The notes under the pieces: generated by a model
The model's input: only the letters and a program-made list of their open reading frames with translations
Told to the model about the DNA's origin: nothing
The model's database searches: none
In this document: in pieces, positions 4,665 to 8,916 of the stretch
Layout: each line of letters opens with the position of its first letter
Numbering within the stretch: position 1 is the stretch's first letter
Virus record (IMG/VR): IMGVR_UViG_3300028025_005669
Location: 1-20,920 of that record
Origin: a virus
Strand: one strand, 5' to 3'
Length of the DNA stretch: 20,920 nt
Program-made: the position numbers and the translations under genes

Positions 4665-4674
4665 GATATTTATC
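4665..4674 (+). promoter_or_regulatory. GATATTTATC motif, candidate late promoter -10 of the sheath gene
   Basis: The motif lies 44 bases before the sheath ATG at 4718. Just after it there is a small inverted repeat, ATAGG at 4676-4680 and CCTAT at 4686-4690, with a 5-base loop, followed by a T-run. That stem could shape the 5' end of the sheath transcript. Confidence 0.45.
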
Positions 4675-4717
4675 GATAGGTCAATCCTATTAAATTTTTT
4701 AAAAACAATTATACAAA

Positions 4718-6730
4718 ATGGCAGAAAAAATTTTAAGTCCTGGCGTATTCCAAAATGAATCTGACCAATCGTTAGTTCAAAGGGGTATTCAAGGGACGTC
4801 AACCGCAATCGTTGGTCCTACAGTATTAGGCCAACCATTAGTTCCAACTTATGTTACCTCATATAGCGAGTTCGTATCTAAGTTTGGTGAAACTTTCAAA
4901 AGTGGTAGTTACTACTACGAATATCTTACCTCATTAGCAGCTAAAGATTATTTTAACAATGGTGGTCAAACATTATTGGTTACTAAAGTAATTAGTGGTA
5001 GTGGTAATGTATCTACTTACGCTAATGCTGATGTAGCTTCTATTGCTACTTTAACTAGTGGTACTGCAGCTACAGCTAGCTTAAATTTGACTAATGCTGT
5101 TACTGCTCAATATTCTGCTTCCATTAATGGGGCATATACATTAAGCTTATCTGGATCTTCTGTACAGGATGTTTATAATCGTCTTACTGGTTCTGTTGCT
5201 TATAGTGCTATTTCTAGCAGTGTTATTAGTGCTTCATTTTCAACTCCAAACGTAATATTTACTGCTATTCCTAAAGGAACAGTAGGTAATAATTATTATT
5301 ATGTTTCTGGTAGTACAACAGTATTATTTACTGGTGGTGCTGATGTAAATTCTTTTACTCTTGAAACTATAGCCTGGGGTAATCAAATGAATAACTCAGG
5401 TAGTATATCTGCTGGTGCTTTAGCAAGTGGTAGTGCACTTAATGTTCGTTGGGAAATTACAAATGTAAACACAGGAAGTGGTGTATTTAATTTAGCAGTT
5501 CGTGCTGGTAACGATAATAATGCTCAACCTAATTATCTTGAAACCTGGCCTAACTTATCATTAGACCCAGCATTACCTAACTTTATTTCTCGTGTAATTG
5601 GTGATAATAAACCCGTTTATAGAGTAGATACTGACGGTGCTCCATATATTGACTATACTGGATCTTATGCTAATGCTTCACAATATATTCGTGTTAAATC
5701 AATAGTTACTCCAAATGTAGATTCTATTGACAACAACGGTAATTTTAAAACAGGATCTTATGCCTCTACTTTACCACTTGTAGGAAGTGGATCTTATGGT
5801 GGTTCATTTAGTGGTGGTGTTGCTGCAACGAATTTAGCTCAATTGATGAATGAAAGTATTACAGCAACAAACGTTCAAGGATTTGGTGTTGCTGATTACC
5901 AAGCTGCATTTAATTTATTATCAAATAGCGATGAATATCAATTCAACGTATTGTTAGCACCTGGTGTTACTTTAGATAATGCTGCTTCTGCAACTATGAT
6001 TTCTACTTGCGAAAATAGAGGTGATGCCATTGCAGTTGTAGACTGTAAATTATATGGTAATGTAGTAACAGCTGCTGCAAATGCCGCTGCTGGTCAATCA
6101 AGTAACTACGCAGCTACATACTGGCCTTGGGTTCAATTATTCTCAACCGCATTAGGTAAAGCCGTATGGGCTCCTGCCTCTACAGTAATGGGTGGTGTAT
6201 TCGCATTCAACGACCAAGTTGGTGCTGAATGGTTTGCTCCTGCCGGTCTAAATCGTGGTGGTGTACCTTCAGTATTACGTGCTGAGCGCAAATTAACTCA
6301 AAACGATCGTGATGTATTATATCAAGCAAATGTTAACCCATTAGCTACATTCCCTGGTGAAGGTGTTGTAGTATTTGGACAGAAAACATTGCAGCGTAGA
6401 GCAACCGCTCTCGACCGCGTAAACGTTCGTCGTTTGTTAATTGCTCTTAAAGGATTTATTGGTCAAGTTGCTAATAATTTAGTATTTGAACAAAATACCA
6501 ATGTAACACGCAATCGTTTCTTGGCTCAAGTTAACCCATATCTTGAATCAGTAGTACAACGTCAAGGCTTATATGCTTATAAAGTTGTAATGGATGACAC
6601 AAACAATACACCTGATGTAATAGATAGAAATCAGTTAGTAGGTCAGATTTATATCCAACCAACCAAAACAGCTGAATTTATCATATTAAACTTTAATGTC
6701 CTCCCCACTGGAGCCACATTTCCTGCTTAA
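4718..6730 (+). CDS. 18: Contractile tail sheath protein (T4 gp18-like)
   Basis: This is the sheath subunit that polymerises around the tail tube and contracts on infection. The 670-residue length is close to T4 gp18 (659). The N-terminal segment LSPGVFQNESDQSLVQRG, followed by GTSTAIVGPTVLG, is the classical sheath start, where the extended arm links neighbouring subunits. Residues from about 400 to 600 hold the conserved core, including the ATYWPW, EWFAPAG and VNVRRLL strands. The last 60 residues (QGLYAYKVVMDDTNN, then GQIYIQPTKTAEFIILNF) are the canonical C-terminal sheath domain. Residues of roughly 100-205 are Ser/Gly/Thr/Ala-rich and look like an inserted or surface-exposed beta domain. 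A late-promoter-like motif precedes the gene. The tube gene would follow directly but for the homing endonuclease. Confidence 0.96.
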   Translation: MAEKILSPGVFQNESDQSLVQRGIQGTSTAIVGPTVLGQPLVPTYVTSYSEFVSKFGETFKSGSYYYEYLTSLAAKDYFNNGGQTLLVTKVISGSGNVSTYANADVASIATLTSGTAATASLNLTNAVTAQYSASINGAYTLSLSGSSVQDVYNRLTGSVAYSAISSSVISASFSTPNVIFTAIPKGTVGNNYYYVSGSTTVLFTGGADVNSFTLETIAWGNQMNNSGSISAGALASGSALNVRWEITNVNTGSGVFNLAVRAGNDNNAQPNYLETWPNLSLDPALPNFISRVIGDNKPVYRVDTDGAPYIDYTGSYANASQYIRVKSIVTPNVDSIDNNGNFKTGSYASTLPLVGSGSYGGSFSGGVAATNLAQLMNESITATNVQGFGVADYQAAFNLLSNSDEYQFNVLLAPGVTLDNAASATMISTCENRGDAIAVVDCKLYGNVVTAAANAAAGQSSNYAATYWPWVQLFSTALGKAVWAPASTVMGGVFAFNDQVGAEWFAPAGLNRGGVPSVLRAERKLTQNDRDVLYQANVNPLATFPGEGVVVFGQKTLQRRATALDRVNVRRLLIALKGFIGQVANNLVFEQNTNVTRNRFLAQVNPYLESVVQRQGLYAYKVVMDDTNNTPDVIDRNQLVGQIYIQPTKTAEFIILNFNVLPTGATFPA

Positions 6731-6765
6731 ATAGTTTAAGCTCTCTTAAGTAGAATATTAAAATT

Positions 6766-6800
6766 TATCCTCCTGCAATATTTATTATCGTAGGAGGATA
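6766..6800 (+). promoter_or_regulatory. Hairpin sequestering the endonuclease Shine-Dalgarno, with late-promoter motif in the loop
   Basis: A perfect 9-base inverted repeat, TATCCTCCT at 6766-6774 and AGGAGGATA at 6792-6800, flanks a 17-base loop. The right arm holds AGGAGG (6792-6797), 8 bases before the ATG at 6806, an ideal Shine-Dalgarno sequence. The loop holds ATATTTAT (6778-6785). Read-through RNA from the sheath gene would fold and hide the ribosome site. RNA begun at the loop promoter would lack the left arm and be translatable. T4 controls I-TevI in the same way. Confidence 0.72.
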
Positions 6801-6805
6801 TTTTT

Positions 6806-7483
6806 ATGATAGTATATGTAACAAAAAATTTAGTAAACGGCAAAAAGTACATAGGAAAAGATTCACATAATGATCCTAATTATTTAGGTAGTGGTGCTTT
6901 ACTTTTAGAAGATATTAAAACATACGGTAAAGAAAACTTTAAAAAAGAAATATTAGAACATTGTACTAAAGAAAATTTAGGCGAACGTGAAGAATATTGG
7001 ATAGACTACTTTGATGCTGTTAAATCAAAAAATTTCTATAACATACGAAGTCAAACATCTGGTTGGTATAATAAAGATTTAAACTTAGAAAAATATGAAT
7101 ATGTTGTTAATAAGATAAGAAACAACACAAAAGGTATTCTTAAACCATCACTTCACAACAATCAAGAACGCTCAGAAAAATTAAGACAAGCCAATACAGG
7201 CAAACCAAAACCAGAAGGATTTGGTGAAATTATACGCCAAAAAGCAATAGGTCGTATATGTACCGACGAACATAAGAAAAAAATTAGTAATAGTAAAGTA
7301 GGCAAACCTCATCCTAAAAGTGGTAAACGTATATTACAATTAGATAAAGAAGGTAATGTAATACAGGAACACAATAGTATTGAAGAAGCCGCAAACTATA
7401 TTGGTAAAAAACGCTCTAATATAAGTTGTTGTCTAATTGGTATATCTAAAACAGCTTATGGATTTCAATGGAAATATATTTAA
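6806..7483 (+). CDS. GIY-YIG homing endonuclease with NUMOD domains
   Basis: This 225-residue free-standing endonuclease is inserted between the sheath and tube genes. The GIY-YIG nuclease core is at the N-terminus: VYV at 3-5 stands in for GIY, and YIG is at 15-17. The segments YLGSGALLLEDIKTYGKENF and GEREEYWIDYFDA follow, where the family has its catalytic and structural residues. Two NUMOD3-type DNA-binding repeats follow, TGKPKPEGF near 131 and SKVGKPHPKSGKR near 163. The C-terminal 50 residues, from ILQLDKEGNVIQEH to the Tyr/Gly/Phe/Trp end, form a NUMOD1 helix-turn-helix. It has a strong Shine-Dalgarno sequence, unlike its neighbours, which suggests arrival as a mobile cassette. It probably cuts endonuclease-free relatives near the 18-19 junction. 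No intron signs are visible; both flanking genes are intact. Confidence 0.95.
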   Translation: MIVYVTKNLVNGKKYIGKDSHNDPNYLGSGALLLEDIKTYGKENFKKEILEHCTKENLGEREEYWIDYFDAVKSKNFYNIRSQTSGWYNKDLNLEKYEYVVNKIRNNTKGILKPSLHNNQERSEKLRQANTGKPKPEGFGEIIRQKAIGRICTDEHKKKISNSKVGKPHPKSGKRILQLDKEGNVIQEHNSIEEAANYIGKKRSNISCCLIGISKTAYGFQWKYI

Positions 7484-7508: not shown

Positions 7509-7518
7509 CATATTTATA
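7509..7518 (+). promoter_or_regulatory. CATATTTATA motif, candidate late promoter -10 of the tube gene
   Basis: ATATTTATA at 7510-7518 lies 39 bases upstream of the tube ATG at 7558. The region between is A/T-rich with no Shine-Dalgarno sequence. It would give the tube gene its own transcript independent of the endonuclease gene, consistent with the tube being needed in large amounts. Confidence 0.5.
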
Positions 7519-7557: not shown

Positions 7558-8043
7558 ATGCCTGTTCTAGATAGCAACGAAATTATGTTTACTGCTTTTG
7601 AACCCAAAGTTCAGAATCGCTTTATCATGTACCTTGATGGTATCCCATCATATTTAATTAAAGCAGCTTCTGCTCCTGGATTTGAAGCTGGTGAGATTAT
7701 TTTAGATCACATCAACGTTTACCGTAAAGTTAAAGGTAAAGTTAGATGGAATGATATGACTTTAAGTTTATACGATCCCGTAACCCCATCTGGCGCACAA
7801 GCAGTAATGGAGTGGGCTCGTTTAGCACACGAATCCGTAACCGGTCGTGACGGATATTCCGATTTTTACAAGAAAGATTTAACATTAGATATTTTAGGAC
7901 CAGTAGGAGATGTAGTAGGTGAGTGGATTATTAAAGGTGCCTATTGCAAAACAGCCACTTTCGGTGAATACGATTGGGCTAACGACGCAGCAATTAACTT
8001 ATCAGTAACAATCGCTATGGATTATTGTGTATTGAATTTCTGA
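7558..8043 (+). CDS. 19: Tail tube protein (T4 gp19-like)
   Basis: This is the subunit whose hexameric rings form the inner tail tube. The 161-residue length matches T4 gp19 (163). Family hallmarks include FEPKVQNRFIMYLDGIPSYLI at the start, ASAPGFEAGEIILDHIN, where tube proteins recognise the ring interface, and a 'VRWNDMTLSLYDP' strand. DLTLDILGPVGDVVGEW and GEYDWANDAAINLSVTI complete the beta-barrel near the C-terminus. It is intact, with no insertion. Synteny with the sheath gene (18-19 order as in T4) is preserved apart from the homing endonuclease. A hairpin 23 bases after the stop probably ends or stabilises its mRNA. Confidence 0.95.
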   Translation: MPVLDSNEIMFTAFEPKVQNRFIMYLDGIPSYLIKAASAPGFEAGEIILDHINVYRKVKGKVRWNDMTLSLYDPVTPSGAQAVMEWARLAHESVTGRDGYSDFYKKDLTLDILGPVGDVVGEWIIKGAYCKTATFGEYDWANDAAINLSVTIAMDYCVLNF

Positions 8044-8122: not shown

Positions 8123-8797
8123 ATGAAACAACCATCAAATAAAGAAACAATAAAACGTCTTTATAATGAATATAAAGAACAATACTTAAATGAAATATAT
8201 GATACACCACTAGAATTTAAAAAAGATTCTAATACAAAATATATTGTATACGATAAAGATGGAAATGAATTAGCATATTTTCTTTTTAAATTTATGTATA
8301 ATATTAATCAATCACCCGTTGATTATAAAAAATATAAACTAGACAGATATTGGAATATTGATTGGTATTGGATCGATAGATTGCCTAAAGAACAAAAAAA
8401 CGCTCAAAATTTTATTAAAGTTACATCTACTGCTTTTAAAATAGTTGATGATTTTATTATATCTAATAATTTTCCTTTACTATTGGGGTTTGGAGGATTA
8501 ACAGAAACCCACGATAGAATCTATTCAGATGAACGTTTTATAGAAAGATGGAGAATATTATTTGGAGAACGATATAAAGTAAAATACCATAATGATAAAT
8601 TATGGATCATAAACAAAATAATAACAATAGATGAAAATAAAATATCAAGAATAGCTGAAATATATGAAAAATCCAATTCAGAAGCATATAGAAAAGAATT
8701 ATTTCCTACTAAACGTGATGTTAAAGGTATATCACGTCACTATATGATTAAAGAACAAATTAAAAGAATCATATTAAAACGTATGTATTTGAGATAA
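8123..8797 (+). CDS. Unknown protein, moron-like position between tube and gp26-like genes
   Basis: I do not recognise this 224-residue protein. It is very rich in Lys, Ile, Tyr and Asn. Its N-terminal half holds an aromatic cluster, near residues 70-90, with YWNIDWYWIDRLPKEQ. The middle has a Gly-rich, hydrophobic strand-turn, ISNNFPLLLGFGGLTETHDR, and the C-terminus is basic (IKRIILKRMYLR). No membrane segment or signal peptide is evident. The gene lies between a stem-loop (8066-8093) and a T-tailed terminator (8875-8903), breaks the T4 tail-gene order and has no late-promoter motif close upstream. These features fit an acquired accessory gene. An adaptor or modifying enzyme with a mixed alpha/beta fold is possible, but nothing supports a specific function. 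Confidence 0.7.
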   Translation: MKQPSNKETIKRLYNEYKEQYLNEIYDTPLEFKKDSNTKYIVYDKDGNELAYFLFKFMYNINQSPVDYKKYKLDRYWNIDWYWIDRLPKEQKNAQNFIKVTSTAFKIVDDFIISNNFPLLLGFGGLTETHDRIYSDERFIERWRILFGERYKVKYHNDKLWIINKIITIDENKISRIAEIYEKSNSEAYRKELFPTKRDVKGISRHYMIKEQIKRIILKRMYLR

Positions 8798-8832: not shown

Positions 8833-8874
8833 TGCAAACGATGAGAGAAAAATCATTTATCTTTATAAAACTAG

Positions 8875-8903
8875 GTGTCTGCTTTTGCAGACACTTTTTT
8901 TTT
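8875..8903 (+). terminator. Rho-independent terminator
   Basis: GTGTCTGC (8875-8882) and GCAGACAC (8887-8894) form a perfect 8-base stem with a TTTT loop, followed directly by nine T residues (8895-8903). This is the clearest terminator in the window. It isolates the gene at 8123-8797 from the gp26-like gene, whose candidate promoter begins 5 bases later. Confidence 0.9.
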
Positions 8904-8906
8904 GCG

Positions 8907-8916
8907 TATATTTATA
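8907..8916 (+). promoter_or_regulatory. TATATTTATA motif, candidate late promoter -10 of the gp26-like gene
   Basis: ATATTTATA at 8908-8916 lies 21 bases before the ATG at 8938 and directly after the terminator. Because upstream transcription should stop at 8903, this motif is the best candidate for driving the gp26-like and gp51-like frames and, by read-through, the tape measure gene. Confidence 0.55.

Follow-up and report, generated by a model that had tools for sequence, protein, structure and literature searches.

The window analysed here is the whole 20,920-base stretch of IMG/VR record IMGVR_UViG_3300028025_005669, from a contractile-tail phage. On its + strand a tail sheath gene (4718-6730) is the 5' neighbour of a free-standing GIY-YIG homing endonuclease gene (HEG; 6806-7483, 225 aa), and this is followed by a tail tube gene (7558-8043), the product of which is 64% identical to its counterpart in Flavobacterium phage immuto. 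The endonuclease gene matches phrog_314 (5e-32) and, in Pfam, NUMOD1 and NUMOD3 above cut-off, with the GIY-YIG model SegE falling just below cut-off. A short motif, ATATTTAT, is found in the leader of the sheath gene (4666-4673) and again, on the + strand, before the tail tube gene (7510-7517). All sequences used in the comparisons below are metagenomic except those of the reference phages, and gene starts are predictions.

The 75 bases between the sheath and endonuclease genes contain, on the + strand, a block CTTAAGTAGAATATTAAAA (6745-6763) and, 3' of it, a 9-nt repeat, TATCCTCCT (6766-6774) and AGGAGGATA (6792-6800), separated by a 17-nt loop (6775-6791) in which another copy of ATATTTAT is located (6778-6785). 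An earlier sequence-only reading of this DNA had described the repeat, the loop and the position of the motif correctly; the stem extends further, to 11 bp including one G.U pair, with a left arm TATCCTCCTGC (6766-6776) and a right arm GTAGGAGGATA (6790-6800). The right arm holds a Shine-Dalgarno sequence (SD), AGGAGG, at 6792-6797 (predicted SD pairing -10.2 kcal/mol), and a U-run, TTTTT (6801-6805), fills the space from the stem to the start codon and may be a terminator tail. AGGAGG occurs eight times on the + strand of the window, and the copy at 6792-6797 is the only one with a gene start at SD distance. The leader folds with a z score of -2.7 (1 of 200 shuffles was equally stable), and the enclosure of the motif by one helix has a p of 0.010 when the left side is shuffled. 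An outer helix reaching the start codon is present in the fold of the window but absent from the RNAalifold consensus fold, and was therefore rejected as a conserved trait.

Distribution of the ATATTTAT motif

Copies of ATATTTAT are enriched in the window (14 vs 7), where they are intergenic and lie 5' of + strand starts, including those of structural genes. A 150-kb part of the phage immuto genome has 30 forward copies, 24 of them intergenic, and 4 reverse copies in all; among 111 intergenic copies in pieces of five phages, 87 are within 70 nt before a same-strand start and 5 are only before an opposite one. Where genes diverge, some contigs have one motif copy facing each. The consensus in control leaders is ATATTTATAANAAA, the extended form being ATATTTAT(AANAAA), and no -35 or other upstream element appears in the consensus of motif-led control leaders. 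In 172 other genes no motif is closer than 4 nt to the ATG, and the distances form a cluster at 4-6 nt and a peak at 14-17 nt. Because no ATG occurs at 0-3 nt and a cluster occurs at 4-6 nt, the RNA probably starts 5-7 nt past the motif, that is, at about 6790-6792 in the window, a position consistent with the 6-8 nt proposed from the sequence alone. In 16 of the 172 control genes the gap is just 4-6 nt, and their RNAs would be leaderless or nearly so.

Judged by its strand specificity, its place before structural genes and its avoidance of the last 0-3 nt before ATG, ATATTTAT appears to behave as a promoter of this phage group, and its spacing looks as would be expected if a promoter of one element set an RNA start 5-7 nt beyond it. 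The genes that it leads suggest that it is a late promoter. A gp55-type sigma is a candidate reader of the motif, with weak matches in 5 of 6 records, but the candidate was not confirmed by PHROGs or by profile comparison. A conserved protein of approximately 240 aa with weak similarity to T4 gp55 was observed in immuto (gp118; L145:28174-28872) and at L240, L241, L242 and L243. We found no description of the motif, or of the hairpin element, in Bacteroidota phages in the open-licence literature.

Conservation of the leader on either side of the tail tube gene

Protein and profile searches with the GIY-YIG gene returned over 80 loci, among which 14 distinct leaders are at the sheath-tube site; the GIY-YIG genes behind the sheath form one clade (support 100/99). 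The motif is enclosed at p<0.05 in 14/14 of these leaders, compared with 5% of the 172 other motif-led genes. The description of the locus as a promoter-like motif inside a start-hiding hairpin is upheld. Thirteen of the 14 keep the SD-arm stem, with the motif in the loop and a right arm that ends 4-10 nt before ATG; the motif has the form ATAT[TGA]TAT and an invariant position in all sheath-site leaders. The leaders were aligned in 14 rows, the 13 stem-bearing ones and L078, which is nearly identical to L079. In this alignment 8 of the 11 pairs have a compensatory change and 30 cells are doubly changed vs 10.2 +/- 2.7 in shuffles, although the leaders at each site are kin and these cell counts are not independent events. 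Slid-structure controls on the same alignment gave 1-7 doubly changed cells, and RNAalifold, unprompted, recovered the same 11 pairs. The sequence-only reading had named a lack of compensating changes in the stems of related phages as grounds for giving it up, and such changes are present.

Across the sheath-site relatives the right arm drifts from AGGAGGATA to AGGAGGGCA, AAAAGGGCA and AAAAGGATA, and pairing is therefore conserved more strictly than the SD. L074 and L079 have only weak SDs in the drifted arm and retain the pairing. In L080, which is nested in the clade, the SD arm and the U-run have been lost and the start codon has become the partner of the left arm (p 0.02), for a small gain in energy. 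The term Shine-Dalgarno-sequestering is thus too narrow. A T-run (T5-T7) follows the stem in relatives at this site and at the second site described below. The CTTAAGTAGAATATTAAAA block is conserved in the phages that bear the endonuclease, even in L080 with its changed arms, and may be an operator or belong to the homing site. In relatives without an HEG at this place (79 tube loci), the sheath-tube junction is mostly 28-90 nt long and the tube gene is preceded by the ATATTTAT motif; the nested-motif hairpin is absent from these junctions.

A gene-blind pattern, CCTCCT-N(0-8)-ATATTTATWAT-N(2-16)-AGGAGG, occurs at 43 places in IMG/VR, 39 of them before endonuclease genes that start 6-11 nt past the arm, 2 cut by a contig end at that very point and 2 without such a gene. 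A scrambled-motif pattern occurs in IMG/VR at 18 places, none before an HEG, and the original pattern occurs at 12 places in 84,980 bacterial and archaeal genomes, again none before an HEG. The 39 genes comprise 23 EDxHD/Vsr-like, 11 HNH and 5 GIY-YIG endonucleases, classes that were determined by profile scan for representatives (phrog_655 for HNH; DUF559, Vsr, phrog_559 and phrog_9084 for EDxHD) and assigned to the remaining genes by shared starts. An arm variant, TCCTTT/AAAGGA, was also tried; it is present at 21 places, with an HEG downstream only at L387 and L389.

The HNH and EDxHD genes have the tail tube gene directly upstream in 13/13 representatives read, and the baseplate hub gene is next downstream where the contig extends, except in L250, which has a second HEG-like fragment instead. 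With GIY-YIG genes at the sheath-tube site and HNH or EDxHD genes at the tube-hub site, the insertion sites thus flank the tube gene, and the element is wider than the GIY-YIG case from which it was first described, including as it does two more nuclease classes at the adjoining intergenic site. When HNH and EDxHD leaders were fetched by protein from all the loci collected, 14/14 distinct leaders folded with the motif in the loop, among them L389, L076, L213 and L238, which are outside the reach of the pattern. Covariation at this second site is independent of that at the first: 10 of 12 pairs, with 24 cells vs 11.2, in an alignment of imperfect register. In the window itself the tube-hub site, where relatives have HNH or EDxHD endonucleases, is occupied by a 224-aa gene (8123-8797) without a Pfam or PHROG match and without a motif leader.

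Taken alone, the bare SD hairpin, TATCCTCCT...AGGAGGATA, lacks specificity; it is present at 39 viral loci and has the motif in its loop only in L034 and L037, the two GIY-YIG loci of the present family. Same-arm SD hairpins were also observed just 5' of start codons in unrelated phages (L027, L039, L042 and L052), some with a TATAAT-like loop, and by these examples promoter-in-loop leaders may be commoner still.

The sequence-only reading had proposed that the leaders of other NUMOD GIY-YIG genes be compared for the same stem and motif. All 14 at the sheath-tube site enclose the motif, but outside the two tail sites a significant enclosing helix is found in only 8 of 25 leaders of the GIY-YIG family. 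The other sites are therefore mixed, and a hairpin element at every site of the family was rejected. The start codon serves as an arm in some leaders from other sites (L090, L092). In a separate group of the GIY-YIG family (L013-L022; 37% identity) the gene begins on the stop of another gene or immediately past it and has neither motif nor hairpin, its coupled starts being an alternative control. Motif-holding helices that cover the start region are also folded by some sheath-gene leaders (4666-4717 in the window, before 3205 in L068 and before 9587 in L154), and a few structural genes may have similar control. Before 1486 in L129, the start codon of an HNH/endonuclease VII-like gene from a different family is inside an 11-bp stem, TTCCATAATAT/ATATTATGGAA, that overlaps the motif.

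Start-region accessibility and the explanations of the hairpin

The computed cost of opening the SD/start region is higher in the long read-through RNA than in the short RNA by a median of 15.5 kcal/mol at the sheath-tube site (14 leaders) and 15.6 kcal/mol at the tube-hub site (14 leaders); the corresponding medians are 5.1 kcal/mol for GIY-YIG family leaders elsewhere and 1.6 kcal/mol for 169 non-HEG genes led by the motif. In these computations accessibility is lost in the long RNA and regained in the short RNA. The earlier suggestion that the endonuclease would be silenced in sheath read-through RNA is supported. SD pairing of -9 kcal/mol or stronger is predicted in 1.2% of control leaders vs 12/14 tube-hub leaders of this type; SDs are otherwise nearly absent from these genomes, and the arm SD is at normal spacing. 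Ribosomes of Bacteroidota mostly disregard SDs, and it is structure that tunes their initiation (PMC9976891, PMC6847099); those of flavobacteria reportedly do not read SDs (PMC9976891). Should the hosts belong to Bacteroidota, the SD might therefore be unimportant, and hiding would then work through structure.

We consider that the hairpin is probably a self-insulating expression element of a free-standing HEG inserted behind a strongly expressed tail gene. The hairpin and its nested motif, the covariation of the arms, the promoter-like distribution of the motif and the recurrence before three nuclease classes are seen in the sequences; the RNA start, the repression and its insulating purpose, set out here, are inferred. 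RNA that reads through from the sheath gene would contain both arms and form the 11-bp hairpin, with the SD/start region hidden, and might additionally terminate at the U-run. RNA from the ATATTTAT promoter in the loop would begin at or inside the right arm, could form no hairpin and would be translated. Expression of the endonuclease would in this way depend on the promoter of its gene and would not follow the amount of sheath RNA.

The same bases could simply end the sheath (or tube) RNA as an intrinsic terminator, with the next promoter in its loop by accident and without any hiding of the start region. The stem is GC-rich and the T-run after it is conserved at both sites, a d'Aubenton-Carafa-type score is positive in 12 of the 14 sheath-site leaders (21.7 in the window), and some relatives without the HEG have a separate terminator at the sheath-tube junction. 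In addition, 13 of the 14 sheath-site leaders have T at -3, a position at which controls have A, and good initiation is therefore not the reason for the U-run. An ordinary terminator-promoter junction, such as that at 8873-8915 of the window, likewise combines a GC-rich stem, a T-run and ATATTTAT. At ordinary junctions, however, in the window and in relatives without the HEG, the motif is un-nested and follows the T-run, whereas the HEG leader has it in the loop, with the start codon directly after the T-run. The loops are 13-19 nt rather than 4-7 nt, and L080, without U-run or SD arm, has its left arm on the start codon. Hiding is favoured as the main layer because the loop encloses the promoter, because the SD is at normal spacing in genomes otherwise without SDs, and because motif-enclosing GIY-YIG leaders at other sites, whose terminator scores are negative, have no U-run. 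A terminator acting by itself is accordingly unlikely, but termination at the conserved U-run is plausible as a second layer, and two layers, hiding of the start region and termination, are possible.

A T4-like time switch, in which the start is hidden on early read-through RNA and open on late RNA, was the interpretation of the sequence-only reading and would have the same logic as T4 I-TevI, segB, e and soc (PMC2988022, PMC3014915). This part of the reading does not hold well for the present phages: the sheath and tube genes upstream are structural and carry the same motif (at 4666-4673 for the sheath), and the incoming RNA should itself be late and simultaneous with that of the endonuclease. 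Insulation from late read-through fits better for this reason, and we regard the time switch as improbable. The inverted repeat might instead act as DNA, for example as an operator through which the endonuclease represses its own gene. This is the case for I-TevI, whose operator overlies the promoter of its gene (PMC2988022), and the conserved block at 6745-6763 adjoins the repeat. The arms, however, vary freely while complementarity is kept, in some cases by G.U pairs, and the layout is common to three nuclease classes with different DNA-binding parts, so an operator is very unlikely. Chance complementarity in an AT-rich leader could be imagined, short inverted repeats being frequent in the window (40 pairs of at least 9 nt), but the enclosure in 14/14 leaders, the double compensatory changes, the second site and a pattern search that is endonuclease-only leave it a negligible probability; a chance repeat is ruled out by the covariation.

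Relation to known leaders and significance

To our knowledge, hidden start sites of HEGs have been described for a few T4-like genes. In T4 I-TevI, I-TevII, I-TevIII and segB, and in Aeromonas phage Aeh1 mobE, incoming RNA folds a hairpin over the ribosome binding site of the HEG, and transcripts from the gene's own promoter, owing to its position, are without the left arm (PMC2988022, PMC3014915). The window hairpin similarly covers the SD/start region on incoming RNA, and the position and spacing of the motif fit an own RNA without the left arm. The logic is thus already known from T4 I-TevI, segB and Aeh1 mobE; what differs is the promoter, the late-RNA setting, the stereotyped layout and the occurrence before three nuclease classes. 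The motif is ATATTTAT(AANAAA), whereas the T4 late promoter, read by gp55, is TATAAATA, and the earlier remark that the promoter sequence is unlike that of T4 was accurate. The incoming RNA should come from genes with the same promoter class and not, as in T4, from earlier-transcribed ones. The layout of loop motif, right-arm SD, U-run and ATG is common to genes of the GIY-YIG, HNH and EDxHD classes at two adjacent sites, and its U-run, unlike the I-TevI type, is fit for termination. The T4 genes e (lysozyme), soc and 49 have an inhibitory hairpin at the start region, with a promoter inside its 5' strand or next to it (PMC3014915), but these are ordinary phage genes in early RNA, and the present element is almost exclusively found before mobile endonuclease genes.

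A transfer of this control from T4-like phages, which had also been suggested, finds no support, the arrangement being absent from five cultured-phage homologues (Serratia, Agrobacterium, Acinetobacter, crAss and Enterocloster). It is also doubtful that the leader is a portable module, acquired by unrelated HEGs through recombination near the tube gene, with a strong SD that, in hosts whose ribosomes normally disregard SDs, would tie translation to a special ribosome population. One GIY-YIG and one EDxHD leader have an identical 31-nt core, a 21-nt stretch reaching into the coding sequence is common to one EDxHD and one HNH gene, and predicted SD energies reach -13.7 kcal/mol; mean cross-class leader similarity is 10.8 vs 9.5 for control pairs, and as this is little above the controls, convergence is at least as likely as transfer of a module.

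One stereotyped layout recurs before three unrelated nuclease classes on either side of one tail gene. For this group of phages, which is large and mostly uncultured, the analysis provides a probable promoter motif and a sequence handle on the mobile nucleases. It also suggests that insulation from the abundant RNA of a neighbour may be a general requirement for a selfish gene that settles in a late operon, an idea that becomes testable by small reporters.
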